Of a stretch of 64,000 nucleotides of DNA, positions 1 through 19,750 are shown piece after piece. A program made the translations under genes and the position numbers. The notes beneath the pieces were generated by a model. It made no database searches, was not told the origin of the DNA, and saw nothing but the letters and a program-made list of their open reading frames with translations. Within the stretch, counting starts at the first letter, position 1; every line of letters starts with the position of its first letter. Origin of the DNA: Alphaproteobacteria bacterium (GTDB lineage: Bacteria > Pseudomonadota > Alphaproteobacteria > Micavibrionales > UBA2020); the NCBI GenBank assembly GCA_016794125.1, contig JAEUKT010000002.1, positions 1 to 64,000 on the forward strand, given 5' to 3'.

Positions 1-1683
1 TGCCCTGCCGTGACCGCCACGCCGTTCAGCGTCAGCGTGCCGGTGGCGGGCAGCGTCGTGATGGTGACTGACAGCAGCGCGTTGGCAGGCGTGTCGTTCG
101 GGTCGGTAAAGCCGAAGTTCGCCGTGGTGAAGGTATATTGCGTATCCTCCAGCGTCGTGACCGTGGTATCCGTGCCCGCCGGCGCATCGTTCACCGCCGT
201 CACGTTGATGGTCATCGTGTTCGGGGACGCATCCAGGTCCACGCCGCCGTTTGCCGTGCCGCCGTCGTCGCGCACCTGGAAGGTGAAGGAGGCATTCGCA
301 AGCCCGTTCGCATTCGCGGCGGGCGTAAAGCGCAGCAGGCCGGAGGTGATGTTCGCCGCCGTGATGCTCTGTCCGGCGGTCACCGCCACGCCGTTCAGCG
401 TCAGGCTGCCGGTCGCCGGCAGCGTCGTGATGGTAACAGACAGCAGCGTGTTGGCAGGCGTATCATTGGGATCGGTGAAGCCGAAGTTCGCCGCCGTGAA
501 GGTATATTGCGTGTCTTCCAGCGTCGTAACCGTCGTATCCGTGCCCGCCGGTGCGTCGTTCACCGCCGTCACGTTGAATGTTATGGTGTTCGGCGTAGGA
601 TCGGTATCGACACCGCTATTCGCCGTGCCGCCGCTGTCCTGTACGCGGAAAGTAAAGCTGGCATAGCCCGTGCCGTTCGCGTTTGCTGCAGGGCTAAAAC
701 GCAGCAAGCCGCTTGCGATGTTTGCCGCAGATACCACCTGCCCAGACGTAACAGCCACGCCGTTCAGCGTGAGCGATCCGACGAGCGGCAAGGTTGAAAT
801 AATGACATTCGAGAGTGTATTCGGCGCAGCGGAATCATTTGGGTCCGTCAATCCGAAGCTGGCCACAGAGAATGTGTACTGTCCGTCTTCCGCTATCGTA
901 TAAGTCGCATCCGTACCGGCGGGCGCATCGTTTACGGAAGTGACGGCGACGGTCATGGTGTTGGCAGACTGGTCGGTATCGACTCCGCCGTTCACTGTGC
1001 CGCCGTCATCGCGCACCTGGAAAGTAAAGGTGGCATATGTCGCACCGTTGCCGTTCGCCGCCGGCGTGAAGCGCAACAGGCCGCTATTGATGTTCGCAAC
1101 GGAAACGATCTGGCCAGCTGTCACCGCCACACCGTTCAGCGTGAGTGCGCCGACGGCGGGCAGGGTCGCAATAACGACACTCGTAAAAGTGTTGGGCGCC
1201 AAAGAATCGTTGGGATCGCTGAAACCGAAATTCGCGACCGTAAAGGTATAGGCCGTATCTTCAAGCGTTGTGACCGTCGTATCGGTGCCCGCCGGTGCAT
1301 CGTTGACCGATGTCACGTTGAAAGTGAAAGTGTTCGGCGACTGGTCGTAATCAACGCCGCCATTCGCTGTGCCGCCGTTGTCCTGCACCTGGAAAGTGAA
1401 ACTGCTGTTGCCGATACCGTTTGCGTTGGCGGCAGGCGTGAAAACAAGCAGATTGTTGCCGATATCGACGGCACTGACGGTCTGCCCGGCCGTGACAGCC
1501 ACGCCGTTCAGGCGCAGCACGCCCGTGGTCGGGAGGGTTGTAATACGGACGCCGGCAAAGGTGTTGGAAGGGCTGTCGTTGGGGTCGCTGAATCCGAAAT
1601 TCGCCGCCGAGAAAGTATACGGCGCGTCTTCGAGGATGGTGACAGTGTTGTCCGTGCCTTGCGGCGCGTCGTTGGCGGGATTG
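1..1683 (-). repeat. Tandem 123-124-residue VNDAP/cadherin-like repeats
   Basis: The motif coding LTLNGVAVTAG recurs at about bases 21, 390, 759, 1131 and 1503, giving periods of 369, 369, 372 and 372 bp. Each unit runs from a VNDAPxGTD start through a TLEDTxYTF segment and an FGFxDPND segment to LxFTPAANxNG and FTFQVxDxGGT. Units nearest the window edge are most alike at the DNA level, with differences mostly at third codon positions, suggesting recent duplication or gene conversion towards the C-terminal side. The array continues beyond base 1. Confidence 0.9.
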
Positions 1684-4600
1684 ACGGTGATCGCAAAGGT
1701 CTGGTTGCTGGTCGTAAAGGTGCCGTCCGTAATACTGAACACGAAGCTGTCGGATGTCGTATTCGTGCCGTTATGCACATAGCGTATCACGCCGCTGTTA
1801 AGCTCGGCCTGCGTAAAGCTTGTGATGGGCGTCGAAGGCGCGCTGTCCCTTGCGAGGAAGCCGTTGGTCAGCCCCGTAGTGACGGTATAAACGAGGGCAG
1901 TCGGCGCACTTTCGTCGGCCGCATAAAGGCTTCCGCTTGCGCCGGTCGAAATAGCCGTCGTCGCGCCCTCGTTGGCGGTCATACCGGTATTCCTGAGGAT
2001 CGGCGCCTCGTTTACGTCGGTGATGTTGACGCGGATACTCTGCTCGCCATACATGGCGGGCGCGCCGTTGTCGGTCGCACGGATGACGAGGTCATAAAAT
2101 GCCGCTGTTTCGTAATCGAGTGCGCCATTGACGGTGATGACACCGGTGGATGAATTGATCGCGAACACGTTGCCCGTATTGCCGGAAACGATCGAATAGG
2201 TGATCGTCTGGCTGGGCTCCGCATCGGTCGAATTCGTGTCGGCGGTGTAGGTGCCGATGGCGGCGTTTTCCGCCAGCGTATAGACGATGCGGTCTGGCAG
2301 CACAAGACTGCTTGCCCATTCGATGACATAGCCGTTGACGGCATAGTTCACAGCGCGGTCTTCCCATGCGCCGGTCCCGTTCATGACCTGATAGTTTTCG
2401 TTGCCGCCGGTATTGCTGGGTTCGTTTGCCGCCCAGTTGATGTAGGAGCCAAGATAGGTAAAGGGGCCGGACGAGAAAATCTGCCCTGCTTCGGCGCCGC
2501 CCGTAAATTTCCAGACGGCTTCCTGCCCGGCATCCGAGCCGCCGAGCCAAGCCGTGTTTGTTCCCGTCACCAGGCCATCGACATACGTGTTTTCCACAGA
2601 TGACGTGATGTTCGCAAGAGAACCGCCACGGCCAAACAGTTGATAAGCGTTCGCGGCTGCCTGCGCCGCCGTGAAAGAGAGCGATGTATTGACGTAGATA
2701 TAAAAGCTGCCGGTGGTGGCGTTATAACTGACCCCCGGATGCGCCGCCAGAACCTCGGCGACCGTCCAGCTATCCGCAAAGGTGACGACGGGCGCATCGT
2801 TCACCTGCGAGACTGTGATATTGAAGGTATAGGCGGCCGATGTCGAAGTAGGATCGGAAATCGTGAAGCTGAAGGCATCCGCAGACGTCTCCGAGCCGTT
2901 GTGCACATACTGCACACGGTTCGCCTGGATATCGGCAAGCGTGAAGCTTGTCACCGCAACGCCCGCGTTTGTAGAAAGCTGCAAATAACCGTTATCGACG
3001 GTGTCCGTCACGCGGAAAATGATCGAGGCAGCGGGATCGGTATCAACGACGCTCAGCATCGCCGAAGTGATTGTGGTGGCGGCGCCTTCGGGTGCGGTCA
3101 CACCGGTATTCGTGATACCGCCCGAACCAGGCACGCCGTTGAAGTTGATCGTGACCGTCTGTGTCGCCGATGTGTTCACCCCGTCATTGGCGGTCATAAT
3201 CAGCGTATAAGACGATGTGGTGGACAGGTTGTTACGGATGGTGGTTGCCGCCGCCGCGTCAAGCACCGTGATCTGGCCCGTCGAGGCATTGACCGAGAAC
3301 AACGCGGAACCCGTACCGCCCGTAATGGCATATGTGAGCGTGGATTTTTCCTGGTCGCCGCCCTGCACCGTTCCCATGACGGAGCCGGAAACGATGTCGG
3401 TCGCGGGGTTGCTGTAGTTGTAGCGGTAGGCAAGGTTATTGATGACGTCAGCGCCTTCCCACTCGATGATATAGCCGTAGGGACCCTGGTTATCGTTCCA
3501 GCCGCCGCCGTCCTGCCATTCCAGCCATTCTTCGCCGGGCGGGTTGGACGTCGTCCATTCCATGAAGCCGTTACCGTTTGCCGTATTGCCAAACAGGTAA
3601 TCGTTCGGCTCCAGGTTGTTCCAGTTGTTATAGGCACCGTTGACGGCTGCACCGCCCTGGCCCGAAAGGCCGACATAGAACACTTGGCCTTTTTCGGGGC
3701 CCGCCATCCATGTCCAGTAACTTTCCGTGTTCGTATCGGACGCCGCCGTCCACAGGCTTTGTGCGGACATCGCGTTGATGAAAGCGTTTTCGGATGCGCT
3801 GGTGATCGTGACAAGGTGGCCGGCGACGCCGTTCAGGTATGCCAGCTCCGAGTTACGCAGCGCAGTACCGATACCGACGGTGCCGGTAACAAGGCGATAA
3901 TAGTTACCGTTCGTGGCATTGTACTGCACCGTGCCGTCCATCCAGGTGATGACCTGGCTGGGGGAAAGCGACGGCGCGCCATTGGTGTTGTCGATGGTGG
4001 CAAAAACAGGCGTGGTCGCGAGCTTGACGGAGAAGTTATCGACCGTGCCCGCAAAGCTGTTGTTCGCGCTGAACCCGATCGAACCGGACGCACCTGCGGT
4101 GATCGTTTCAGTATAGGTGCCGGCCGCGTTGCGCGACGTACCCAGCGTGCCGCCGATATTCACCTGTATGCTGCCGCCGGTGCGCGTGATTGTGTAAGTC
4201 ACGGTGTAGGAGCGACCGGAAACCAGGGTGCTGTCGGTTTGCAAAAGCGTGCTGGCTGTGCCGGAAGTTTTTGTCGCAACGCCACCACCAAGCGCCCAGC
4301 CGGTGCCGGTCGTCCAGTCGGTTGCGGTCGCGAAATCGCCGTTGCGCACTTCGCTGTAAACCGCAGTCGTCGCCGTGCCGTCGGAAACGGTCAGGCCCAG
4401 CATCACTTCGTTGGCACCCGCCACGGTGTTCGTGAAGGTGATCAGGCCCGCGTCGATATTCGCCTGCGTAAACGTGCTGCCGGTGGTCAGCGCCACGCCG
4501 TTGTTGCGCAGGATGCCGGTCGTGGGCGCGGTGGTCAGCGTATAGGTGAGCGTGGGAGAATCCGCATCGATAGCAAGCAGGTTGCCGCGCCCGACCACAA

Positions 4601-5258
4601 CCGTCTGACCGTTTCCAACGCGGATGCCCGTATTTGCGCCCATGATCGGCGCATCGTTGACGGGGGTGATGTTCAGCGTCGTCGACTGGCTGAAATAGCC
4701 ATCCAACGTATAGGTGATCGTGCGGCTGGCGACAGGGTTGTCGGAAATATTGCGGAAGCTGATGCGCTCGATCAGCGCCTCGACCGAGGTGCGGGTCGCG
4801 TTCGCGTTCAGGGTGATGATGAGCGGGTTGCCATCGACGCCGTTGCCGCCCGCGGATGACAGGCTGCCGATCTGTACGCCGCCATAGGCGACGGCGAAGT
4901 TATAGACCGCGATATCGGTCGCGCCCTGCGCGCCCACCGTCTGGCGCGTGCGGCTGATGTAAAGCTGGTCGTTGATGCCGCCGGTCGTGGAGATCGTCAG
5001 ATTGACGCCGTCGAAATTGTTGGTCGATCCGCCGACGGTCACCTGCCCGTCTTCGCCCGTGCCCGACAAAATCGTGGGCGTGACAAAGTCGAAGTCGCGG
5101 TTGGTGGGTTGCAGGACGTTGACTTGCGTTTCGGTGAGTGTGATAGATGCCGCAAGACCGGACAGCGTCGCGTCGAGCATCAGGCGCTTTTCAAGCGCCT
5201 GCAACGTCTTCCGCGGGGATCGTTTTGATCCCTTGCTTTTTTTGTCCTTATCGGTCAT
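1..5258 (-). CDS. Giant secreted multidomain adhesin-like protein, N-terminal 1752 residues (runs off left edge)
   Basis: The reading frame is open from the ATG at 5258 to base 1 and has no stop in the window. Near the N-terminus, after a Lys/Arg-rich stretch, residues 22-30 read LEKRLMLDA, resembling the LEPR-XLL motif found at the start of very large type I-exported proteins; there is no Sec signal peptide. Domains by eye: a CSPG/NG2-like region (about 200-300), a Thr/Gly-rich jelly-roll-like region (about 300-430), a C-type-lectin-like domain (about 450-605, WNNLEPND near 548), a cadherin-like domain (about 605-700), a CSPG-like repeat (about 700-835, YVHNGSE), a second lectin-like domain (about 838-983, NWAANEPSN), a cadherin domain (about 985-1084, GALDYETA), another CSPG-like repeat, then VNDAP-type repeats to the edge. 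Inferred role: calcium-stabilised surface or secreted adhesin, possibly carbohydrate-binding. The C-terminal secretion signal is not in view, so the export route is inferred. Confidence 0.85.
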   Translation of the reverse strand, partial: MTDKDKKSKGSKRSPRKTLQALEKRLMLDATLSGLAASITLTETQVNVLQPTNRDFDFVTPTILSGTGEDGQVTVGGSTNNFDGVNLTISTTGGINDQLYISRTRQTVGAQGATDIAVYNFAVAYGGVQIGSLSSAGGNGVDGNPLIITLNANATRTSVEALIERISFRNISDNPVASRTITYTLDGYFSQSTTLNITPVNDAPIMGANTGIRVGNGQTVVVGRGNLLAIDADSPTLTYTLTTAPTTGILRNNGVALTTGSTFTQANIDAGLITFTNTVAGANEVMLGLTVSDGTATTAVYSEVRNGDFATATDWTTGTGWALGGGVATKTSGTASTLLQTDSTLVSGRSYTVTYTITRTGGSIQVNIGGTLGTSRNAAGTYTETITAGASGSIGFSANNSFAGTVDNFSVKLATTPVFATIDNTNGAPSLSPSQVITWMDGTVQYNATNGNYYRLVTGTVGIGTALRNSELAYLNGVAGHLVTITSASENAFINAMSAQSLWTAASDTNTESYWTWMAGPEKGQVFYVGLSGQGGAAVNGAYNNWNNLEPNDYLFGNTANGNGFMEWTTSNPPGEEWLEWQDGGGWNDNQGPYGYIIEWEGADVINNLAYRYNYSNPATDIVSGSVMGTVQGGDQEKSTLTYAITGGTGSALFSVNASTGQITVLDAAAATTIRNNLSTTSSYTLIMTANDGVNTSATQTVTINFNGVPGSGGITNTGVTAPEGAATTITSAMLSVVDTDPAASIIFRVTDTVDNGYLQLSTNAGVAVTSFTLADIQANRVQYVHNGSETSADAFSFTISDPTSTSAAYTFNITVSQVNDAPVVTFADSWTVAEVLAAHPGVSYNATTGSFYIYVNTSLSFTAAQAAANAYQLFGRGGSLANITSSVENTYVDGLVTGTNTAWLGGSDAGQEAVWKFTGGAEAGQIFSSGPFTYLGSYINWAANEPSNTGGNENYQVMNGTGAWEDRAVNYAVNGYVIEWASSLVLPDRIVYTLAENAAIGTYTADTNSTDAEPSQTITYSIVSGNTGNVFAINSSTGVITVNGALDYETAAFYDLVIRATDNGAPAMYGEQSIRVNITDVNEAPILRNTGMTANEGATTAISTGASGSLYAADESAPTALVYTVTTGLTNGFLARDSAPSTPITSFTQAELNSGVIRYVHNGTNTTSDSFVFSITDGTFTTSNQTFAITVNPANDAPQGTDNTVTILEDAPYTFSAANFGFSDPNDSPSNTFAGVRITTLPTTGVLRLNGVAVTAGQTVSAVDIGNNLLVFTPAANANGIGNSSFTFQVQDNGGTANGGVDYDQSPNTFTFNVTSVNDAPAGTDTTVTTLEDTAYTFTVANFGFSDPNDSLAPNTFTSVVIATLPAVGALTLNGVAVTAGQIVSVANINSGLLRFTPAANGNGATYATFTFQVRDDGGTVNGGVDTDQSANTMTVAVTSVNDAPAGTDATYTIAEDGQYTFSVASFGLTDPNDSAAPNTLSNVIISTLPLVGSLTLNGVAVTSGQVVSAANIASGLLRFSPAANANGTGYASFTFRVQDSGGTANSGVDTDPTPNTITFNVTAVNDAPAGTDTTVTTLEDTQYTFTAANFGFTDPNDTPANTLLSVTITTLPATGSLTLNGVAVTAGQSITAANITSGLLRFTPAANANGLANASFTFQVRDDGGTANGGVDLDASPNTMTINVTAVNDAPAGTDTTVTTLEDTQYTFTTANFGFTDPNDTPANALLSVTITTLPATGTLTLNGVAVTAG

Positions 5259-5788: not shown

Positions 5789-7918
5789 ATGAAGATTTCA
5801 CATACCGATACGTCCCTGCCCTATGCGGCGGGAATTGATTTCCTGCTCGACCAGCTGGATGCCGAAAAAGGTGTCTATATGGCGTCCGACACCGATTATC
5901 CGGGGCGTTATTCCCGCTGGGATATCGGCTTTGCAGCGCCGCCCGTCGAAATCACAGGCTATGCCGGCCGTACGGAATTCCGCGCGCTGAACGCGCGCGG
6001 CGAAAAGATCCTCGCGATGTTCGCGCAGCTGTTCAAAGATCATGCGGATGAAGCGTTTAAAATCGGTAAATGCGATGCGCAGACGATTATTTGCACCATC
6101 GCCGCCGCTTCACGCAGCTTTTCCGAGGAAGAAAGGTCACACCAGCCCTCGCCTCTCTCGCCGCTGCGCCTGTTGATGAAACTGGCGGCTTCCGGTGAGG
6201 GATTTGCCGGGTTTTATGGTGCTTTCAAATACGACCTGCTGTTCTGTTTCAACCCCGTACCGCTGAAGCATCAACGGGGGGCGGATCACAGCCTGTTCAC
6301 GCTTTACCTGCCCGACAGCATCCACCTGCTCGACCGCCGCAAGGAAACGGTGTTCCGCCGCGAATATGAATTCGCGCTGGGCGACTTGACCACCGCAGGC
6401 ATGCCGCGCGAAAGCGGCGCGAAAAACCCGCCGAAAGCGGCTGCCGGCACGCCCGCCATCACCAGCAACATGTCCGACGAGGAATATGCGGACATGGTGG
6501 CGCGCGCGCAGGAACATATCCGCAAGGGCGATGTGTTCGAAGTGGTGTTGAGCCGCAAATTCAAGTCGCCTTATAACGGCCAGCCGTCGCAGCTGTTCCG
6601 CAATATCCGTCGCATCAACCCCTCGCCTTACGAATTCCTGATCCAGATGGGAAAAGAGCAACTAGTCGGCGCATCGCCCGAAATGTTCGTGCGGGTCGAA
6701 GGCAAGCGCGTCGAATCCTGCCCCATTTCCGGCACCGCCCGCCGCAGCAAATCGCCGGGGCAGGCCGCCGTGATCGAGGATGCTAAAATACTGCAGGAAC
6801 TGCTGAATTCCAAGAAAGACGAAGCCGAGCTGACCATGTGCACCGATGTCGACCGCAACGACAAGGCGCGCATCTGCGAGCCCGGATCCGTGCGGCTGCT
6901 CGCCCGCCGCCAGATCGAATCCTATGTCGGCCTGTATCACACGGTCGATCATGTGGAGGGTATCCTGCGCGACGGTTTCGACGGCGTCGATGCCTTCCTG
7001 TCGCATATGTGGGCGGTTACGCTGACCGGCGCGCCGAAACCGGAAGCGTCGAAAATCATCGAGAATTTCGAGCCTGAAGCACGCGAATTCTATGGTGCTG
7101 CCGTGGGCGCATTGCATTTCGACGGCGGCGTCAATACCGGCATCACCATCCGCACCCTGCACCTGAAAAACGGCGAAGCCACATATCAGGCGGGCGCGAG
7201 CATCGTTTACGACTCCATACCCGCCGAAGAAGCGGTGGAAACGCATACCAAGGCGACCTCGTTCCAGCGGATCCTGTCGGGCAACGTGGCAGCACCTGCC
7301 GACCGCGTCGCCGTGCGCAGCGGCGAAGGCAAAACGGTCGTGCTGATCGATAACGAGGATAGCTTCGTCCACACGCTTGCCGATTACATACGCCAGACAG
7401 GGGCCACGGCCGTCACCTATCGCCACGGCACGCCGCTTGCGACGATCCAGCAGCACAAGCCGCATCTGGTCGTCCATTCCCCCGGCCCCGGCCTGCCCGA
7501 ACAGTTCAATGTGCCGGGCATGGTGCGCGAAGTGGCGGCGGCGGGCATCCCGCAATTCGGCGTCTGTCTTGGACTGCAGGGCACGTTCGAGGCGTTTGGC
7601 GGCACGCTCGGCTATCTGCAAACTCCGCAGCACGGCAAGACATGGAATATCACGCATAATAACCACGCGCTGTTCGAAGGTGTGCCCAGCCCCTGCCTGG
7701 TGGGCGCATATCATTCCATCCACGGGTTGCCCGCATCGCTGCCCGACGAGTTAGAAATAACGGCACGCAACGATAACGGCGTGATCATGGCGCTGCGCCA
7801 CAAAACACTGCCGATCTGGGCGGTGCAGTTCCACCCTGAATCGGTTTTGTCAATGCAGGGTTATGTCGGCCATAAAATGATCGAAAACGTGATGAAACAC
7901 CTCGCAGGTAAAGCATGA
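5789..7918 (+). CDS. trpE(G): Anthranilate synthase, fused TrpE and TrpG
   Basis: This 709-residue protein makes anthranilate from chorismate and glutamine, the first committed step of tryptophan synthesis. Residues about 1-510 form the chorismate-binding component, with the conserved CPISGTARR and GASPEMFVR segments and the DVDRNDKARIC block. Residues about 525-709 form a class I glutamine amidotransferase, with the nucleophile Cys in GVCLGLQG and the His in QFHPES. The fusion in one chain is the arrangement of rhizobia and Azospirillum. AGAAGG (5776-5781) upstream of the ATG serves as ribosome binding site. It is preceded by trpL, so attenuation control is expected. Its TGA overlaps the trpD ATG. 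Confidence 0.95.
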   Translation: MKISHTDTSLPYAAGIDFLLDQLDAEKGVYMASDTDYPGRYSRWDIGFAAPPVEITGYAGRTEFRALNARGEKILAMFAQLFKDHADEAFKIGKCDAQTIICTIAAASRSFSEEERSHQPSPLSPLRLLMKLAASGEGFAGFYGAFKYDLLFCFNPVPLKHQRGADHSLFTLYLPDSIHLLDRRKETVFRREYEFALGDLTTAGMPRESGAKNPPKAAAGTPAITSNMSDEEYADMVARAQEHIRKGDVFEVVLSRKFKSPYNGQPSQLFRNIRRINPSPYEFLIQMGKEQLVGASPEMFVRVEGKRVESCPISGTARRSKSPGQAAVIEDAKILQELLNSKKDEAELTMCTDVDRNDKARICEPGSVRLLARRQIESYVGLYHTVDHVEGILRDGFDGVDAFLSHMWAVTLTGAPKPEASKIIENFEPEAREFYGAAVGALHFDGGVNTGITIRTLHLKNGEATYQAGASIVYDSIPAEEAVETHTKATSFQRILSGNVAAPADRVAVRSGEGKTVVLIDNEDSFVHTLADYIRQTGATAVTYRHGTPLATIQQHKPHLVVHSPGPGLPEQFNVPGMVREVAAAGIPQFGVCLGLQGTFEAFGGTLGYLQTPQHGKTWNITHNNHALFEGVPSPCLVGAYHSIHGLPASLPDELEITARNDNGVIMALRHKTLPIWAVQFHPESVLSMQGYVGHKMIENVMKHLAGKA

Positions 7919-8901
7919 AACCCAAGCAGAACCACGCCGACGAAGTGGATAAAAAATGGGCCGACGTGATGGGCAAGCTTTGCGATGACGACTTTCCGGC
8001 CGACGGCAAGGCACGCATCCTGCAAAACGTGAAGGATGAGGACATTACAGGCGAAATGCTGGCATCCTGCGCCCGCGCGCTGATGCTGCGCGTTGTGCCG
8101 CTTGATTTAAAAGGCATCGATGTCTGCGGTACCGGCGGGGACAAGAGCAAATCGAACGTGAAAACATTCAATATCTCGACCGCTGTGGCCTTTGTGGTGG
8201 CGGCTGCGGGCGTGTCGGTCATCAAGCACGGCAACCGCGCCGTATCCGGCGTCAGCGGATCGAGCGATGTGCTGGCGGCGTTGAAAATTTCCGTCGCCAC
8301 CAACCCCGCGATGGCGAAAATCCAGCACCAGAAGCATAACCTCTGCTTCGTTTCCGCCCCCGCTTTCCATCCCGCACTCGCCAGCCTTGCCCCCGTGCGC
8401 AAAGCATTGGGCCGCCCGACATTCCTCAACCTGCTGGGCCCGCTTTGCAACCCTGCGCGCACCGCGCGGCAGGTGATGGGCGTATATGGCTTCCAGCCGC
8501 AGGTGGCCGATGCCGGGAAACGCCTTGGTCGGCAGGACATGATGATCGTCCACAGCATGGACGGGCTTGATGAAATCTCCCTTTCCGACCTGACGCAGAT
8601 TATCCGCGTCAAGGAAGGCAAGGTGGAGGAAATGCTGGTCTGCCCCGAAGACGCAGGGCTTGAAACCACGCCGCTGGAAAAACTGCAGGGCGGCACGGCG
8701 GAACAAAACGCCAAAATCATCACCGCAGTATTCGAAGGCGAAACCGGCGCGCCGCACGATATCATCTGCCTGAACGCCGCAGCGGCTTTCATGACCGCCG
8801 GCAAAGACCCGGACCTGAAAACGGGCGTAGCGCGCGCGAAAGAAATCATCGCGGGTGGACTGGCCCTTAAAAAACTCCAAGCCATGAAGGGTGCGGCATG
8901 A
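7915..8901 (+). CDS. trpD: Anthranilate phosphoribosyltransferase
   Basis: The 328-residue enzyme transfers the phosphoribosyl group of PRPP to anthranilate. The PRPP/anthranilate site is visible as CGTGGDKSKS followed by FNISTAVAFVVAAAG, then KHGNRAVSGVSGSSDVL, and the family GPLCNPA segment near the middle. Length matches the usual 330-345 residues. The ATG overlaps the trpE(G) stop in an ATGA junction and its own stop overlaps trpC in the same way, implying translational coupling in one operon. Confidence 0.95.
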   Translation: MKPKQNHADEVDKKWADVMGKLCDDDFPADGKARILQNVKDEDITGEMLASCARALMLRVVPLDLKGIDVCGTGGDKSKSNVKTFNISTAVAFVVAAAGVSVIKHGNRAVSGVSGSSDVLAALKISVATNPAMAKIQHQKHNLCFVSAPAFHPALASLAPVRKALGRPTFLNLLGPLCNPARTARQVMGVYGFQPQVADAGKRLGRQDMMIVHSMDGLDEISLSDLTQIIRVKEGKVEEMLVCPEDAGLETTPLEKLQGGTAEQNAKIITAVFEGETGAPHDIICLNAAAAFMTAGKDPDLKTGVARAKEIIAGGLALKKLQAMKGAA

Positions 8902-9689
8902 CCGGATTCCTGCAAAAAATCCATGACATAACCATCGACCGCGTCGCAAATGACCGCTCGGCAATGTCAATCGCTGATCTAGAACGCGCGCCGCTATTTG
9001 CGCGCCAGGCCGGAAACGTACTAAACGCCTTCCGCAAGGACGATTACAACATCATCGCCGAGGTAAAGTTCGCCAGCCCCTCGCAAGGCAACATTGCCAC
9101 CGGCGACCCCGTTGCAGTCGCCGGTGGGTACCTGCGTTCGGGCGCCGCTATGTTGTCGGTTCTGACCGAGCCGCAATATTTCGGCGGCAAGCTCGATTAC
9201 CTGCATGACATCCGCGAGAAATATCCGCATGCCTTGCTGCTGCGGAAGGATTTCATGGTCGATCCCTACCAGCTTTACGAAGCGAAGGCCAATGGGGCGG
9301 ATGCCATCCTGCTGATTGTCGCCATGACACGGCCAGAGCTTACGAAAGACCTGTTCGAGACGGCAAAAGGCCTCGGCCTTACGGCGCTTGTCGAAGTGCA
9401 TGACGCAGCAGAGCTGCAGCAGGCCGTGGAAATGGGCGCCGATTTTATCGGCGTCAACAACCGCAACCTGAAAACATTGAAAACCGACCTCGGCATCGGA
9501 CGCGACCTTGCGCAAATGAAGCCAGAACATGCCGTTTTTATCTGCGAAAGCGGGCTTTCGACCGCCGATGACCTGCGCGACATGCGGGCACGCGGCTATG
9601 ACGGCTTCCTGATGGGAACCAGCTTTATGAAACAGCATGACCCGGGCTACGCGCTGCAGGAATTACGGGAGCAGCTGGGATGCGCGTAA
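8898..9689 (+). CDS. trpC: Indole-3-glycerol phosphate synthase
   Basis: A 263-residue TIM-barrel enzyme converting carboxyphenylamino-deoxyribulose phosphate to indole-3-glycerol phosphate. The signature EVKFASPSQG is present near residues 55-64, LLRKDFMVDPYQ carries the catalytic Lys, and IGVNNRNLKT and ICESGLS mark the later barrel strands. It stands alone (not fused to TrpF). It overlaps trpD by ATGA and trpF by 10 bases. Confidence 0.95.
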   Translation: MTGFLQKIHDITIDRVANDRSAMSIADLERAPLFARQAGNVLNAFRKDDYNIIAEVKFASPSQGNIATGDPVAVAGGYLRSGAAMLSVLTEPQYFGGKLDYLHDIREKYPHALLLRKDFMVDPYQLYEAKANGADAILLIVAMTRPELTKDLFETAKGLGLTALVEVHDAAELQQAVEMGADFIGVNNRNLKTLKTDLGIGRDLAQMKPEHAVFICESGLSTADDLRDMRARGYDGFLMGTSFMKQHDPGYALQELREQLGCA

Positions 9690-10315
9690 AAATCTGCGGC
9701 CTGACCCGCAGCGAGGACGCGGCAGCTGCGCAAAACCTTGGCGCATGGGCGCTCGGCTTTATTTTTTACCCGAAGTCGAAGCGCTTTATCTCTGCAGACG
9801 CCGCAAAAAGCATCATCGCCACGTTACCCGCATCGCGGCCTATCGGCGTTTTCGTTAACCAGACGGGCGAAGCGATTGGCATCGCGAAAGATGCAGGGTT
9901 AAAAGGCATCCAGCTGCATGGCGACGAAACGCCAGACGACCTGCGCCGCGTCCGCGCCGCATTCTCCGGCACGCTCATCAAGGCACTACGCCCGAAAAGC
10001 GAGGCCGACCTGCAAGCAATCGCCGGTTACAAAGGCCTTGCCGACTACATCCTACTGGATGCCGCCGTGGGCAATGAATATGGCGGCACAGGGCATACCG
10101 GCGACTGGTCGTTGGCGCAAAAAGCCACAGCTTTCGGTATCCCCGTCATCGTCGCAGGCGGGCTCGACCCCGATAACATCGCCGCCGCTTATGCACAAAC
10201 CAAGCCCTATGCGCTTGATTTGTCGAGCGGTGTCGAGGCATCGCCCGGCATCAAGGACCACGCTAAATTACAGGCGCTCTTCGCCAATATTAAAGGAAGC
10301 ACCCATGCAGCCTAA
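9680..10315 (+). CDS. trpF: Phosphoribosylanthranilate isomerase
   Basis: This 211-residue TIM-barrel isomerase begins with the diagnostic [12 protein letters not shown], whose Cys is the catalytic base. GVFVNQ, IQLHGDE and a C-terminal [15 protein letters not shown] phosphate-binding segment follow, the latter typical of TrpF (SSGVE). Its start lies inside trpC and its stop lies inside the first codons of trpB, so it is tightly embedded in the operon. Confidence 0.95.
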
Positions 10316-11513
10316 AATGCACAACAGCAACAGCCCCGACGACCGCGGCTACTTCGGCGATTACGGCGGGCGTTTCGTGCCCGATACGCTGATGGCCCCG
10401 CTGCTGCAACTGGAGCAGGCCTATGCCGAATTATCGGCGAGTAGCGAGTTCTGGCGCGAATTTGAATCGATGCTCACACAGTTCGTCGGGCGCGAAACGC
10501 CGCTGCAATATGCCGCGCGGCTGACCGAAAAACTGGGCGGCGCGAAAATTTACCTGAAACGCGAGGACCTTGCGCATACCGGCGCGCATAAAATCAACAA
10601 CGCCATCGGCCAGATCCTGCTGGCGCGGCACATGGGCAAGACGCGCATCATCGCGGAAACCGGCGCGGGCCAGCACGGTGTCGCCACCGCCACCGCCGCC
10701 GCGCAATTCGGCATGAAATGTGTCGTTTATATGGGTGCGGAGGATATGGCGCGGCAGGAAATGAACGTGTTCCGCATGCGGCTGCTGGGCGCGGATGTGG
10801 TCGCGGTCAATGCGGGTTCCCGCACGCTGAAGGATGCCGTCAGCGAAGCGATGCGCGACTGGGTCGGCAATATCGCCGATACCCATTACCTGCTCGGCTC
10901 CGCCCTTGGCCCCCATCCCTATCCCCGCATGGTGCGCGATTTCCAGTCGGTGATCGGGCGCGAGGCGCGCGAACAGATTCTGGCGCAGGAGGGCAAACTG
11001 CCCGACACCGTCATCGCCTGCGTCGGCGGCGGCAGCAATGCCATCGGCATATTCTCGGGCTTCGTGAATGACAAGGATGTCGCGCTGATCGGCGTAGAAG
11101 CCGGCGGCACGGCGATTGCGGCGGGCGAACACGCCGCACGTTTTGCGGGCGGAAAACCCGGCATTTTCCAGGGCATGAAGACTTATATTTTGCAGGATAA
11201 TGACGGACAGGCATCGCCCACGCATAGCGTTTCCGCTGGCCTTGATTATACCGGCGTCGGCCCCGAACATGCATGGCTGCATGACCTGAAACGCGCGACC
11301 TATACCAATGTGAATGACGACGAGGCCGTTACCGCGTTCCACCTGCTGGCGCGCACGGAGGGCATCATTCCCGCGCTCGAAAGCTCGCACGCTATCGCTT
11401 ATACAATAAAGTCCGCGCCCGCAATGAAAGGCAAGACGATCATCGTCAACCTGTCCGGCCGCGGCGACAAGGATATCGGCATCATCCAGAAATATGACGG
11501 AGCCCGCAAATGA
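10305..11513 (+). CDS. trpB: Tryptophan synthase beta chain
   Basis: The 402-residue PLP enzyme joins indole and serine to make tryptophan. The PLP-binding Lys lies in [13 protein letters not shown], and [10 protein letters not shown] forms the phosphate-binding loop; [12 protein letters not shown] is also conserved. AAAGGAAG (10292-10299) places the start at 10305, which overlaps the trpF stop by 11 bases, although the in-frame ATG at 10317 is an alternative. The frame stays open upstream to 9918, but that part lies antiparallel in frame to trpF and is not protein-like. It ends in ATGA with trpA. Confidence 0.95.
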
Positions 11514-12277
11514 GCCTGCGCAACGCATTAAGCACCGGAAAATCCGCCTTCATCCCCTTCGTCATGGCGGGCGACCCGAATATGGCAGAAACCGAAAAGA
11601 TCGTGGCCGCGCTGGAACGCGCGGGCGCAACAGCACTTGAGCTGGGCGTGCCGTTTTCCGATCCCGTCGCCGACGGCGTAACGGTGCAGAAGGCGGCGGA
11701 GCGCGCATTGGCGGGCGGTGCGACACTGAACGGCGTGCTGGAACTGGTGAAAAAACTGCGCGCAAACGGCGTAAAAATGCCGATCTGCCTGTTTTCCTAC
11801 CTCAACCCGATTTACATGATGGGTTACGAGACGTTTATCACCGCCGCGCTGAAGGCCGGCGCGCAGGGCGCGCTGATTGTCGACCTGCCGCCCGAAGAAG
11901 CAGGCGACTACCACACGGCCGCGAAAAAGAACGGCTTTGAAACCGTCTTCCTTTGCTCGCCCACAACGACCAGAGAGCGTTTAAAATTGGTCGATGATTA
12001 TTCCAGCGGTTTTGTCTATTACGTATCGCGCGAAGGCGTGACAGGCGCGCAGAGCGCACTGCCGCAGCAGCTGGAACAGAAAATCGCGGCGCTAAAAACT
12101 GAGCTGAAAAATCCCGTCGCCATCGGATTCGGCATTTCGACGCCAGATCATGTGAAGGCATTGACCGGCAAGGCAGACGGCATTGTGGTGGGATCCGCGC
12201 TTGTGAAGATCATCGAGGAAAATCCGGCGAATGCGGCGGCTGCGGTCGAGGCGCGGGTGCGCGCGCTGCTTGCCTGA
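11510..12277 (+). CDS. trpA: Tryptophan synthase alpha chain
   Basis: A 255-residue TIM barrel that cleaves indole-3-glycerol phosphate and channels indole to Trp[15 protein letters not shown] carries the catalytic Glu, and [11 protein letters not shown] the catalytic Asp. [10 protein letters not shown] and GIVVGSALV form the phosphate site. It is the last trp gene; the next gene starts 27 bases on, and no strong terminator was seen, so read-through into the cupin and ROK genes is possible. Confidence 0.95.
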
Positions 12278-13761: not shown

Positions 13762-16700
13762 TTAATCCGTCACCGTAAAGCGCGCCTCGTCGCTGTTCGC
13801 GCGGATTTCCGGCACATACATCGCATGTGCCTGATCGGGCATGGCATGGAATTCGCCCGGGATTTCCGCGCGCAATTCATAGCGCAACAGGTGTTTGCCC
13901 TGTTTCAGGCTGGAAATAAAGAATGCCGCTTTCTGGTCGCGGAATTCCTGATACACGTAGGTGCGCTCGGACGTCTCTTTGCCCTCATGGTCGAGCTTGA
14001 TCGCCTCGCCGCCGCCGCTGACCAGCGACACCGCCTCCAGCCCCGCCGGTTTGTAATCTTCGGCGATCAGGTATTCATAGTTATTTTTCGCGTCCAGCAG
14101 CACATCGACACGGATGCGGTCGCCGCTTTTTACGGCTTCTCCGTCTTTCAGCTCCACCCAGTCTTCCGTGTAGCCTTTCATCAAAGTTTCTTTGACCGAC
14201 TGCTTGTAATATTTACGGGTCACGAAAATTTCGTTGCCGGCCTTGGTGATCGGTTCTTCCAGCGTGAAGTATTTGGCATGCGCGGCGACATACATCGCGC
14301 CCGTGCCCTTGATCGTCACGCTGACCTTGTTGTCGCCGTCTTTCAAATCCTCCGCCGGAATGTCGATCAGGCGATTGAACGAAAACACGTTGGACGCATC
14401 GGCGCGCCCCTTGCGCACTTCTTTGCCGTTTACCGTCACCGTGTAATCATATTCCGGCGCCAGTTCACGGGTGGCTTTCAGGTAGTCTGCAAGGCCGAGG
14501 ATGGCGATTGCCGTATCGCGCGTGTTTTTCCACGACGCGCCGCGGCGGTTCAGCACCATCCATTTGACCGCTTTCTCCAGATACGGGCTTTGCGGGTCCA
14601 GATTGGCGAGCGCCTTGATGTTGAACGCCGTCGCCTCCACCCCGCCCTCGCTCCAGCGGTAATGGATGCCGCTTTCGCCCCAATGGGCGGTCGCGTTATC
14701 CTTGTCTTCAGAAACGCCGTTCACGATGTTTTGCGCCAGCACACGGCTGCGTTCCGCATTGCCGTATTTATGCTCGGCCAGCGCAAACAGCGCGCGGGTA
14801 TAGGGGTTCAGCTTGCCGCGCATATCCCACAACCGGTTGCGCTGCTTGTCGGTGAAGGCATCCGACGCGGTCGATACGTTCGAGAGCGCATGGATCATCC
14901 AGGCCAGCATATCGGGCTGGTCTTCTTCCTCCACCAGTTGGTTGCGCAGGAATTGGGCAGCGCGGGTAATCACATCGCCCCGCACATCCATGCCCGCATC
15001 GCGCGCAAGGCTGAGCCCCCAGACGACATAGGATGTCATGAAACGGTCGGAATCGCCGTCTTTCCACCAGCCCCAGCCGCCATCGCCATGCTGGAAATCA
15101 TACAGGCGCGTCAGCGCATCCGCCGTCATTTTATCGAGCTTTTTATAGGTCGTGTCGGTGCGGCGCTGCGGATGGCCCTGCGGGTCGTTGCGGGGTTCCA
15201 GCACATCGCTCAAATACGCCTCCACATCTTCGCCCCTGATGCCCAGATCCTTCATCGTCTTGCGCACGATGATCGCGGGCAGGAAGCGGCTCATGGTCTG
15301 TTCCACGCAGCCATAGGGATAGTCTGCAAGGTAGGGCAACGCGTCCAGCAGGTTCGCCGCCAATGACGGCGAAACGGTCAGGCGCAAGGATGTCGCTTCC
15401 TTGATGCGCTCTTTCGGGATATTCACCGTCAGCTCCTTCGTCACCGCGTCGCCGGTCGATTTCAACACCAGCGACTGCGCGATGAATTTTTCGATGCCGT
15501 GCGGAATGACGGGATAGGTTTTTTCCATCGCATCCGACGCTTTTTCGGATTTGGCGATGACGGTGATTTTCGCCATGCCGGCTTTTTGCGCGGAAACCGC
15601 CCAATCGACACGCGTCTGGCCGTTCGCAGGAACGGTGACGGATGTCATTTCGCCCTTCACGAATTTGCCGCCTTTATAAAGCCCCGTGACATTCACGCCT
15701 TCGGTCTTGATGACGGGAATAACGGTGACCGGTTTATCTGTCATGTTATCGATCAGCGCCGATACGTTCACAAGGTCGCGTTCGGTAAAGAATCGCGGCG
15801 CCTGCAAACGGATCATCAGGTTTTTATTCGATTTTACCTCATGCGTGACGCTGCCGATCGAGGTTTCTTTCGTCGCCGCGCGCGCGGTTGCGCGCCATGT
15901 GGTCAGCGAATCCGGGAATGTCACTGTCACGCGCGCATGGCCCCGCGCATCGGTTTTCACCGACGGCAGCCATGTGACGGTCGAGCGGAAATCGTTGCGG
16001 ACGCGGTCGGGTTCCTGCATCGCGCCCTGGCCTTCTTCCATGCCTGCCGGGCTTTTCTTTGCGTCCATTTCATTTTTGTCGGCAACTTTTTCCTTGGCTG
16101 CGCCGCGCGCCGCCATGGCAGGCGCGGGGGCTGCGTTGGACGACACCGATTTCATGACCACGCTTTCGGCTGCTGCAAAATCGCCCTTGCCGCCCGCCAT
16201 ACCCAGCTGGCGCGGCGCCAGTTCATCGCGCTGGCCGTCGTCGGCACGGCCGTCCTTGTTCATGCGGCGGCGTTCGTTTTCCTGATCGGTGATCAAGCCC
16301 CCGTCTTCGCCGCGCATCAGCAGCGTATAGGGACGCTGGTAAAAGCTTGCCTGCGTCTGGATGCTCGGCTGCTTTTTCTCGCCATAGAAAAACTGCTGGA
16401 TATCCTGCGCATATTCGCCCTGAATGTAATAAATCGCGGCATCGGTGATGCCGATCGCGACCTCCGATTCAACGGGATGGCCGTCCTTGTCGGTCACTTC
16501 AAGATCGAACGTACCTTCTTCCTGCGGTTGATACACGGCCTTGTCGGATGTCACCTTGACGTTCAGGAATTTATCGGACGGCGGCACAATCACCTGCAGC
16601 TGCGCGGTTTTCAGCTGGTATTGCTGGCCGCTGACGGCGTTCAGGAAGATATTGGGCGTGTAATTGTCGTTCACGGGCAGTTCGACCAGTTTCACGCTGC

Positions 16701-19596
16701 CCTCCAGATGCAGCATTTTGTAATCGAACAGGCTGTCGCTTTCGACCGACAGCAATACATATGTATCCGGCACATCGGAGACGATCATCGCGCGCATGGT
16801 GTCGCCCGCGTTGTACGTGTCTTTTTCCGTGATGATCTGCAAGCCGCCATAGCGGTAGCCGATATTGGTCGCCTGCGTATCGCAGACATAGATATAGGCA
16901 AGCGCCGTCACGGTGTTGCCGTTATCAAAGCCTGTGAATTCCACGCTATAATAACCGTTTTCCGACGGCTCGAATTCAAACAGGGCTTCGCCCTTGGCGT
17001 TCGTTTTCACGAATTTGGTCATGATTTCCGCGCCGTCATAACGGCCCTGTTCCTTCAGCGTGCCGTCTGACCAGACGGGATCGCGCCATGTGTTGCGGCG
17101 GATGATCACCTTGCCTTCGACCGCGACAGGCTTGTCATCGGCGGTCTGGGTGCGGATCGTCACCTGTGCCTTGTCGCCCGGGCGGTAAATGTTGTTTTTC
17201 GCCTCGGCCGTTGCGTAATAGGCGGTTTTCATGACCTTGATATCGGATGTGCCACGGATTTCACGGCGGCTTTTATCCACCACGCGCACCTCGATGTGGT
17301 ATTGCAGCTGGTCGCCGGCATCCTTGGGCGTGTCGATTTTAAACTTTGCCTTGCCGTCCTTTCCGGTCTGGATTTTTGCCTGCTTCACCAATTGGCCATA
17401 GCCGCCATAGCCGTAATTTTGCGGGTACATGTCGTCGTAATACCAGCTATAGGCGCGCCACGGGCGGTAGTAACGCTGATACTGGTTCTGATACACCAGA
17501 TACTCCACATCGGCATCCGCCACCGGCCCGCCGAAGTAATATTGTGAATCGACGGATACATCGATGACATCGCCCAAACGATAGGCCGTGATGCCGTCTT
17601 TGGCTTCCTTCGGCTCCGGCGTGACGTTCACGGTATATTCGGGAAGCTTATATTCCTCCAGCCGGAACAGCTGCACGGTCGAAAGGTGGTTGTTCGCATC
17701 CGCCGTATAAAGCTGCAGCGAATATTCGCCCAGAACCGCCTTGTCATCCAGCGTCAATGTGCCGTCGAACGATCCGTAATCGTTCAGCGTGTCATCTTTT
17801 TCCAGCACCTGCTTGCCCTGTGCGTCGTAAATGCGCGCCTTCACCTTCATGCCGGCGGGCACAATGAAGCCGCCGTTTTTCGGCTGGCGCAGCATGGCCT
17901 TGAAATTCACCGTTTCATTGGGGCGGTATGCAGGGCGGTCGGTGAAGGCATAGAGCCAGTTTTCACCCTTGTTGTTGCTGTAATAATTATAATAGTTGTT
18001 CTGCACAAATGCCTGCCGCCCATCCGCCGCCATCGCGCCGAACACGGTGTGCTGCTGCGAATAATTCAGTTTGCTGTTGCTGCGCAGCGCTGTTTTCAGC
18101 AAGCCATCGTCATCCGTGCGGCCTTCATCGACGATCCAGCGCGTATTGTTGGTGTCGTCGTAATAGCTGTAGGTATAGCGGATATCGGCATTCGCAACCG
18201 GTTTGCCGGTTTTCGCGTCCATCGCAAAAAACAGCGCCTTGTCATTCGCGATCTTGCTGACCAGCGCGACATCGCTGACCAATACCAGTTCATAGACGGG
18301 CGCTAGGCTGCCGGATTGCGCGACCATCATATAGGCACCCGTGGGCAACTGGCCGTTTTTAGGGTCGGGCTTTTCGTCGCCGTCTTTGCGCCAGTCGGCC
18401 AGGCTTTTCTGCTCGCTGTATTGCAGGTGCTTGCCTTCTTCTTTCAATTCGATCCTGGTTTCCAGCGCGACGGGCAGCGATTTATAACGCCCCGACTGCA
18501 TCAGCTGCTGCAGCATGTCCTGATAGCTGTTGATACCGGAATTATCGGATTTCAGGTTGATTTCGCGTGCAAGGTCGAGCTTGTAAAACGACAGTTGCGC
18601 CGATTTGACGTTGCGCCATGTCAGGTAAAACTGGATTTCCGATCCCGGCAAAAAGGTGTTCGCAACGCCCACCGACAATTGCGGGTTCACGATATATTCC
18701 ATGCGGCGCTGCGCGTCATCGACCCATTGCGACTGGCCGGTTTTATATTTCGCGGTCAGTTGTTTATAGGTCTTCACCGCCTCCACGAAATCGGACTTGT
18801 TCTCGTAAAACATGCCAAGCTGATAAAGCGCGTCATCCGCCCATTCGGTGTCGGCGTAATCTTCGGCCACGGTTTTAAACGCATCAATCGCGCGGTCGCG
18901 CAATTTCTGATCGCCGCTGTAATTCTGCTGCCATGCCATCGCCTGCCCGTAATAGGCGCGCGCCTTGTCGTTATCCGATTTCGCAACCTTCAGGATTTCG
19001 GCGAAAAGCACCTGCAGCGATTCATTCCCCTGCGGCTGCTGCGGCGGGGGCACGGGCGCGATCATGCGCTTGCCGCCCATGCGGATCGGGCGGATATCGG
19101 TATTGTACCAGCCCCAGCGGCTGGTAATGAAATCGGCTAGCTGGAAGCTTATGCCGATGAATTTTTCACGCGCGAGATCAACGTCGGATGATCCTGCCCA
19201 CCAGTCGCGCGCGTCATCAAGGTATTTCTTGATAGATTCCGCCTTGCCGTATTGATCGACGGTTGTGTAATGCGTGGCGAGCGATACTTCGGCCTCGGCG
19301 CGCCAGCGGTCGTCCGTCTTGCCGTCGGCAAGCTCCAGCAGTTTTGTTTCCGCCGGTTTCAGGCGCGTTTCGTCCTTCAGCTGCAATACGCTGTCGCCCC
19401 ATTTAAACGCCACTTCGCGCTGGAGTTTTTCATCGGCTTTCTGGCCGTCGAATTTTTCAAATTCCGCCGCCGCCAGCTGCCATGATTTTTCCGCGTAATA
19501 TTTATTCGCCGTTTCAAGGTCGGATGCCGAATACGCCTGTGCCGGTTGCGGCAGCAGCATCGATACGGCAAGGGCGAAAAGCGCGAAAAATTTCAT
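13762..19596 (-). CDS. Bacterial alpha-2-macroglobulin (YfaS/MG2-type protease inhibitor)
   Basis: The chosen ATG at 19596 gives 1944 residues starting with a clear Sec signal peptide (MKFFALFALAVSMLLPQPAQA); the frame stays open 26 codons further upstream but without a signal. A TPR-like helical region follows (about 30-330), then macroglobulin domains with NETVNFKAMLRQP, a bait-like stretch rich in Ala, Lys and Met near residues 1110-1190, an A2M core (VTFPDSLTTWRATA), and the thioester motif CVEQ in YPYGCVEQTMSRFLP near residue 1430, then the alpha-helical toroid and receptor-like end. The thioester traps attacking proteases covalently. Unlike E. coli YfhM it has no lipobox, so it is probably soluble in the periplasm, and no pbpC lies beside it. 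It lies 154 bases downstream of allA on the same strand. Confidence 0.9.
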   Translation of the reverse strand: MKFFALFALAVSMLLPQPAQAYSASDLETANKYYAEKSWQLAAAEFEKFDGQKADEKLQREVAFKWGDSVLQLKDETRLKPAETKLLELADGKTDDRWRAEAEVSLATHYTTVDQYGKAESIKKYLDDARDWWAGSSDVDLAREKFIGISFQLADFITSRWGWYNTDIRPIRMGGKRMIAPVPPPQQPQGNESLQVLFAEILKVAKSDNDKARAYYGQAMAWQQNYSGDQKLRDRAIDAFKTVAEDYADTEWADDALYQLGMFYENKSDFVEAVKTYKQLTAKYKTGQSQWVDDAQRRMEYIVNPQLSVGVANTFLPGSEIQFYLTWRNVKSAQLSFYKLDLAREINLKSDNSGINSYQDMLQQLMQSGRYKSLPVALETRIELKEEGKHLQYSEQKSLADWRKDGDEKPDPKNGQLPTGAYMMVAQSGSLAPVYELVLVSDVALVSKIANDKALFFAMDAKTGKPVANADIRYTYSYYDDTNNTRWIVDEGRTDDDGLLKTALRSNSKLNYSQQHTVFGAMAADGRQAFVQNNYYNYYSNNKGENWLYAFTDRPAYRPNETVNFKAMLRQPKNGGFIVPAGMKVKARIYDAQGKQVLEKDDTLNDYGSFDGTLTLDDKAVLGEYSLQLYTADANNHLSTVQLFRLEEYKLPEYTVNVTPEPKEAKDGITAYRLGDVIDVSVDSQYYFGGPVADADVEYLVYQNQYQRYYRPWRAYSWYYDDMYPQNYGYGGYGQLVKQAKIQTGKDGKAKFKIDTPKDAGDQLQYHIEVRVVDKSRREIRGTSDIKVMKTAYYATAEAKNNIYRPGDKAQVTIRTQTADDKPVAVEGKVIIRRNTWRDPVWSDGTLKEQGRYDGAEIMTKFVKTNAKGEALFEFEPSENGYYSVEFTGFDNGNTVTALAYIYVCDTQATNIGYRYGGLQIITEKDTYNAGDTMRAMIVSDVPDTYVLLSVESDSLFDYKMLHLEGSVKLVELPVNDNYTPNIFLNAVSGQQYQLKTAQLQVIVPPSDKFLNVKVTSDKAVYQPQEEGTFDLEVTDKDGHPVESEVAIGITDAAIYYIQGEYAQDIQQFFYGEKKQPSIQTQASFYQRPYTLLMRGEDGGLITDQENERRRMNKDGRADDGQRDELAPRQLGMAGGKGDFAAAESVVMKSVSSNAAPAPAMAARGAAKEKVADKNEMDAKKSPAGMEEGQGAMQEPDRVRNDFRSTVTWLPSVKTDARGHARVTVTFPDSLTTWRATARAATKETSIGSVTHEVKSNKNLMIRLQAPRFFTERDLVNVSALIDNMTDKPVTVIPVIKTEGVNVTGLYKGGKFVKGEMTSVTVPANGQTRVDWAVSAQKAGMAKITVIAKSEKASDAMEKTYPVIPHGIEKFIAQSLVLKSTGDAVTKELTVNIPKERIKEATSLRLTVSPSLAANLLDALPYLADYPYGCVEQTMSRFLPAIIVRKTMKDLGIRGEDVEAYLSDVLEPRNDPQGHPQRRTDTTYKKLDKMTADALTRLYDFQHGDGGWGWWKDGDSDRFMTSYVVWGLSLARDAGMDVRGDVITRAAQFLRNQLVEEEDQPDMLAWMIHALSNVSTASDAFTDKQRNRLWDMRGKLNPYTRALFALAEHKYGNAERSRVLAQNIVNGVSEDKDNATAHWGESGIHYRWSEGGVEATAFNIKALANLDPQSPYLEKAVKWMVLNRRGASWKNTRDTAIAILGLADYLKATRELAPEYDYTVTVNGKEVRKGRADASNVFSFNRLIDIPAEDLKDGDNKVSVTIKGTGAMYVAAHAKYFTLEEPITKAGNEIFVTRKYYKQSVKETLMKGYTEDWVELKDGEAVKSGDRIRVDVLLDAKNNYEYLIAEDYKPAGLEAVSLVSGGGEAIKLDHEGKETSERTYVYQEFRDQKAAFFISSLKQGKHLLRYELRAEIPGEFHAMPDQAHAMYVPEIRANSDEARFTVTD

Positions 19597-19750
19597 GGCG
19601 GTGATCCCGTTCAAACGCGTTGCAACAAGGATAAGACGCGGCGTAACGCCCGATCCTTGGAAAATACTTTCCAATGATAGGTCGGGCGGCTTAACAGACT
19701 GTTAATTAAAGGGAAAACCGAATGTGAACGCGCGTTATAACGCCGTTACG

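Follow-up and report, generated by a model that had tools for sequence, protein, structure and literature searches.

A probable carbohydrate-recognising giant adhesin with a candidate M50-HlyD export route in a Micavibrio-order alphaproteobacterium

What is the very large protein encoded at the start of this stretch of DNA, and how would it leave the cell? The window, by which we mean the whole stretch of 64,000 nucleotides that was analysed, belongs to a 3.16-Mb genome in four contigs (G000), and its start is the end of contig C2. A single open frame of 1752 codons with an ATG start occupies positions 3-5258 of the minus strand and runs off the window edge. An earlier note, made from the letters alone, had read this frame as a giant secreted adhesin with two C-type-lectin-like domains in a cadherin/CSPG framework. 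A secreted adhesin is still the most likely role. We consider it probable that the protein recognises carbohydrates and uses as its export route an M50-HlyD complex, named for an M50 intramembrane protease fused to an HlyD-like adaptor, in an alphaproteobacterium of the Micavibrio order.

The earlier note suggested extending the frame leftward to its stop. No extension is possible at the window edge, where contig C2 stops; the 3' end was found on another contig, C4. The two parts are as follows.

3..5258, minus strand: 5' part of the putative giant adhesin gene, 1752 codons, truncated where contig C2 stops
G000:C4:1-2226, plus strand: 3' part of the putative giant adhesin gene, 741 codons, a 5'-open frame from base 1

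The C4 piece matches the C2 piece in repeat family and direction and reaches a stop codon after a nonrepetitive tail, giving a protein of at least 2493 aa (1752 + 741 aa). The ortholog in G004, a sister genome, is split alike, with the 5' part on contig C212 and the 3' part on C302; the latter matches the C4 piece at 93% across all 741 aa and has 642 aa extra in front, and the whole G004 protein comes to about 3100 aa provided its pieces do not overlap. In both genomes the gene sits between trpE and an ABC transporter gene. In G002 these two genes are neighbours with matching orientation, some 600 bp from each other, and the giant is absent between them. Because of the shared repeat and reading direction, the split in G004 with the same flanks, and the adjacency of trpE and the ABC gene in G002, the C2 and C4 contig ends are best read as one gene, a middle stretch of which is probably missing from the assembly. 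That the pieces are instead two genes, the N-terminal part being a shorter, complete or decaying one, could draw on the join lying in an unsequenced gap and on a broken frame close to the 3' end in G003, but the same three observations stand against it and make it very improbable.

Neighbouring tolC, hlyB and hlyD genes, which the earlier note had proposed as a check, are absent: the giant gene has trp genes as neighbours at one end and a generic ABC transporter at the opposite end. We considered this ABC transporter, beside the giant's 3' end, as a dedicated exporter and rejected it, as it occurs without the giant in G001, G002 and G005. The trp genes form a compact operon that diverges from the giant gene and includes a TrpE/TrpG fusion (TrpE-clade3); a mannose-6-phosphate-isomerase-like cupin and then a ROK kinase come after it (window 5789-12277, plus strand). 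Beyond it lies a bacterial alpha-2-macroglobulin of 1970 aa with MG2, A2M, TED and bMG10 domains (window 13762-19674, minus strand). In G001 (contig C116) and G005 (contig C1), trpE and the ABC gene are separated by 27-30 kb at the site that the giant occupies in G000 and G004; an RND pump, response regulators and an RTX-like protein are encoded there.

The proposed cadherin/CSPG framework held up: the 1752-aa frame matches the Pfam profiles Cadherin_3 (E 1e-79) and Cadherin (2e-20), along with Lectin_C (1e-9). Its features, from the N terminus onward and all on the minus strand of the window, are listed here.

5169..5195, minus: LEPR-XLL-type motif LEKRLMLDA, residues 22-30, proposed export tag
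4662..5168, minus: N-terminal domain, residues 31-199, without a Pfam match
4362..4649, minus: Cadherin_3 unit 1 (55 bits)
3987..4361, minus: insert of about 125 residues with a by-eye resemblance to a jelly-roll carbohydrate-binding module
3435..3983, minus: C-type-lectin-like domain 1, residues 426-608, with EPN and WND and with model and structure matches
3603..3611, minus: EPN motif, E550-P551-N552
3492..3500, minus: WND motif, W587-N588-D589
3141..3353, minus: degenerate cadherin unit (23.5 bits, under the cut-off of 28.8)
2811..3113, minus: Cadherin_3 unit 2 (88 bits)
2298..2777, minus: C-type-lectin-like domain 2, residues 828-987 (Lectin_C 23.6 bits, cut-off 22.6)
2415..2423, minus: EPS, E946-P947-S948, aligned to the EPN of surfactant protein D
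2358..2366, minus: WED, W965-E966-D967, aligned to the WND of surfactant protein D
2019..2282, minus: cadherin domain (72 bits)
1683..1997, minus: Cadherin_3 unit 3 (87 bits)
3..1673, minus: tandem units of about 123 aa starting NDAP, of the Cadherin_4/Big_9/tandem-95 type, continuing on contig C4

The C4 part adds further units of about 123 aa, one cadherin domain and a tail with the end ARYYQSKHDQLVRALTDETPKT; a similar L..AL end pattern is seen in most relatives with a known end. Residues 31-199 resemble, by eye, the giants of the relatives G018, G023, G031 and G054. The reading of residues 300-424 as a carbohydrate-binding module was dropped, as it found no Pfam or PDB match. Neither part of the giant contains a cysteine. 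A second protein with Cadherin_3-like repeats is encoded elsewhere in the genome (G000:C2:1176282-1178306, minus strand).

We then asked whether the two lectin-like segments have the proposed fold. Lectin_C (PF00059) scores 39.5 bits on the whole protein against a cut-off of 22.6; scored singly, domain 2 passes and domain 1 falls slightly below (22.3). Both domains match C-type lectin carbohydrate-recognition domains (CRDs) by sequence search, domain 2 matching lung surfactant protein D at 1.6e-4, and a profile of 18 lectin-segment copies finds solved C-type lectin CRDs in the PDB at 1e-12 to 1e-15. For domain 1, a model built from an alignment that included 27 viral-contig homologues reached a pLDDT of 77 and matched the ASGR1 CRD in Foldseek (E 3.9e-7, TM 0.80 on target); the VIA comparison with the PDB gave Z 17.4 and an rmsd of 2.2 over 122 residues, and scavenger-receptor and mannose-binding CRDs were matched as well. 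The loop between EPN and WND is long and poorly predicted (model residues 129-150). The own model of domain 2, made from four sequences, has a pLDDT of 50 and is too poor for use. Thus, of the two folds proposed earlier, the first is backed by model and structure comparison and the second by sequence match.

The sugar motifs, which had been placed near residues 548 and 945, were found a few residues away, at 550-552 and 946-948, and are not two equal sites. Domain 1 has the Ca2+- and sugar-coordinating residues of the EPN/QPD plus WND type, whereas domain 2 has EPS and WED in their place, so that a Ca2+-dependent sugar site appears likely in domain 1, judging from model and sequence, and doubtful in domain 2. 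The conserved disulphides of animal C-type-lectin-like domains are missing; with zero cysteines, the protein has a cysteine-free C-type-lectin fold and falls outside the canonical animal type. The ligands of many C-type-lectin-like domains are proteins or ice, not sugars. It could be, then, that the lectin folds here are structural or protein binding and that the giant is mainly a biofilm or cell-surface scaffold, as the presence of type II antifreeze proteins among the domains' structure and sequence matches and the substitutions in domain 2 would allow. We regard this as rather unlikely, considering that EPN and WND are kept together in domain 1 and are also paired in the lectin domain of a Micavibrio-like genome and in phage-contig homologues. 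In IMG/VR, 119 viral contigs encode a relative of the giant's C-type-lectin domain. EPN and WND are present in those that were read, whose frames span about 350-870 aa and whose identity to lectin domain 1 is 34-49%. The one viral relative tested in PHROGs belongs to no family there.

If the protein binds sugar through domain 1, it must first reach the outside, and its N terminus offers a lead. The LEPR-like motif claimed by the earlier note was confirmed: LEKRLMLDA scores 18.7 bits in a six-frame search, over the LEPR-8K cut-off of 17, and 12.9 bits when the same model is run by hmmscan on the entire 1752 aa. By direct inspection, the residues before the motif are rich in lysine and arginine, without a Sec-type hydrophobic core. 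LEPR-type motifs are conserved in 12 of 55 relatives (E<0.001), and the giant carries the only one found in G000. By this score, the protein is a member of the LEPR-XLL class (NF012209), and it represents a new variety of giant bacterial adhesin. With the other LEPR-XLL giants, the longest of which exceeds 15,000 residues in the genomes scanned, it shares an N-terminal LE-x-R motif over the cut-off, great length and a repeat-built body; it differs in having LEKR for LEPR and two C-type-lectin-fold domains. An RTX C terminus as in a Vibrio LEPR-XLL giant (PMC10868602) is absent.

A type I secretion signal of the classical kind, which the earlier note had proposed looking for, is likewise not supported. 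There is one GGxGxD-like hexamer in the 1752 aa and none in the C-terminal 741 aa, so that neither part has an RTX array. The giant thus has neither the C-terminal array nor the linked ABC/HlyD/TolC genes by which RTX proteins and classical type I secretion system (T1SS) substrates were judged. The candidate exporter is an operon unlinked to the giant, the single one of its kind in the genome (G000, C4:268229-274372), about 270 kb from the C4 start that bears the giant's 3' end. Its four genes encode a TolC-like protein, two HlyD-like proteins and a fusion of HlyD with an M50 intramembrane protease. In G021 and G023 the gene order is OEP-HlyD-HlyD-M50/HlyD-giant, and G018 and G054 have a comparable set. 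The M50 part has an intact HExGH and, further on, an NLNPLMRFDG motif; its closest NCBIfam models are daptide metalloproteases (E 2e-44, under the family cut-off), and among solved structures it has a weak match to the archaeal M50 protease MJ0392. The HlyD part matches T1SS and efflux adaptors. An energising ATPase was not found in the operon. A PqqD-like (RiPP-recognition) fold at the start of the fusion (its first 116 residues), an idea formed by eye, gained no Pfam or PDB support and was set aside.

To see how far LEPR giants and M50-HlyD go together, we drew 160 Pseudomonadota genomes evenly from 99 genera, counting a LEPR-motif frame as a giant from 900 aa upwards. M50-HlyD is present in 45/46 genomes with a LEPR giant compared with 11/114 others; 103 of the 160 have neither and 11 have M50-HlyD only. 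The odds ratio is 421 for M50-HlyD and 4 for the LssB T1SS ATPase used as a control. The 900-aa limit was set after the hits had been seen, and without it the overlap is 48/57 (Fisher 3e-23). M50-HlyD lies nearby on the same contig for 39 of 70 giants, LssB for none of the 70. Among the 55 relatives, M50-HlyD occurs in all 12 genomes with a LEPR motif and in 14 overall, the two without a motif being 77-79% complete. The sampled genomes are akin, so the p-values overstate independence; the contig linkage and the breadth of 99 genera nonetheless make descent alone an unlikely cause. The link between LEPR giants and M50-HlyD export is a correlative one.

LssB-like T1SSs are a common route for giant adhesins of this repeat style, and G000 has a complete system of the LssB type on C2 at about 1,364,800-1,369,900. 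The giant might therefore be an ordinary T1SS adhesin that exits through LssB-type ABC/HlyD/TolC, with M50-HlyD serving something else. Set against this are the absence of an RTX array from either part, the presence of LssB in 52/55 relatives, which means that it does not track LEPR giants, and the 14 genomes of the 160 with a LEPR giant and M50-HlyD but no LssB, the reverse case being seen in none. The LssB operon also adjoins a giant candidate substrate of its own. With so weak an association and no linkage, we rejected the classical T1SS as the matching exporter and hold this route to be unlikely. A different objection accepts the association and reverses its meaning: by analogy with LapG acting on LapA, the M50-HlyD complex may process, anchor or release the giant after another export route. 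The M50 is an intact intramembrane protease whose nearest NCBIfam model is a daptide leader-processing enzyme, and the lack of an ATPase in the operon would fit. The operon, however, also encodes a TolC-like channel and two more HlyD-like adaptors, which suit a conduit across the envelope better than they suit a processing enzyme by itself, and we give this alternative a minor share of the probability, somewhat above that of T1SS export. On C2, the region 1358500-1378000 holds the LssB-type genes (TolC, ABC, HlyD), a giant repeat protein of >2000 aa upstream of them and, nearby, a 1491-aa frame with 17 RTX motifs.

In the export reading that we favour, the cadherin, Cadherin_3 and tandem-95 units would form a long stalk displaying the protein outside the cell, and the binding site would reside in the lectin-fold domains of the N-terminal part, where domain 1 has residues typical of a Ca2+-dependent sugar site. 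The N terminus, basic and of the LEPR-XLL type, may serve as the address for a dedicated export complex; its members would be the M50-HlyD fusion, two HlyD-like adaptors and a TolC-like channel in the outer membrane, and the M50 would trim the N terminus. The ligand may be a surface glycan of another cell, and the purpose contact with prey or partner cells. Only tentatively do we extend this to a generalisation, namely that LEPR-XLL giants leave by a distinct envelope-crossing system, the M50-HlyD fusion with its adaptors and channel, which is widespread and has no dedicated ABC transporter, that this system recognises their LEPR tag and the M50 cuts it, and that the window protein is a lectin-bearing substrate in a predatory lineage. 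No account of how LEPR-XLL proteins leave the cell, and no description of M50/HlyD giant-protein operons, was found in the open-access literature searched, and the pairing of LEPR with M50-HlyD is the new part of the result. The co-occurrence of LEPR giants with one machine in 45 of 46 genomes makes LEPR-XLL export testable by removal of a single gene.

How does the protein compare with known systems? Giant T1SS adhesins of the LapA/BapA type have a giant repeat stalk, an N-terminal module and export of the HlyD/TolC type. The window protein shares the stalk and the N-terminal module, and HlyD/TolC-type export is expected for it too; unlike them, it lacks an RTX array and a linked T1SS ABC ATPase and tracks the M50-HlyD operon. 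The daptide and epipeptide M50 metalloproteases (NF041824, NF058609) are the nearest curated models of the exporter's M50 half, which differs in falling below the family cut-off, in being fused to HlyD and in being paired with giants rather than short peptides. Sugar binding in the Rap-family CHDL lectins of Rhizobium is not known to be by a C-type-lectin fold. These lectins are likewise alphaproteobacterial and extracellular, with cadherin-like domains and a lectin role (PMC5061743, PMC9298526); they differ in being substrates of the PrsDE T1SS.

A further comparison comes from the host's own order. The window genome belongs to the same order as G052 and to a different family; the order name Micavibrionales is the reading of GTDB, whereas NCBI taxonomy files Micavibrio under Bdellovibrionota. 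G052 resembles the genome of Micavibrio aeruginosavorus, an epibiotic predator: its LssB-type ATPase (at about 111 kb) and a lectin/RTX gene near a contig end fit GMV0110 and GMV2456 of strain ARL-13 (PMC3189940). The lectin/RTX protein GMV2456 has a proposed role in prey recognition (PMC3189940), and carbohydrate receptors were proposed long ago for Micavibrio cell recognition (ref. 37 of PMC3189940). Its counterpart in G052, an RTX protein of 1246 aa through which we make the comparison, carries a C-type-lectin domain related to that of the giant. GMV2456 itself is 1238 aa long with 18 RTX repeats and a T1SS signal (PMC3189940), whereas the window protein has at least double that length, a LEPR N terminus and no RTX array. 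Related lectin domains occur in other secreted-looking proteins of the order. The lectin domains are a concrete candidate for the recognition of other cells by Micavibrio-like bacteria.

The combination of a LEPR N terminus with a sugar-binding-like module takes other forms as well. A LEPR protein scanned from G029 carries Laminin_G_3 together with Cadherin_3, so that sugar-binding-like modules of another fold occur on the same N terminus. On contig C6 of that genome (L065:873-6682), a tandem pair of LEPR-motif genes, one of them coding for the protein scanned, lies near the M50-HlyD gene.
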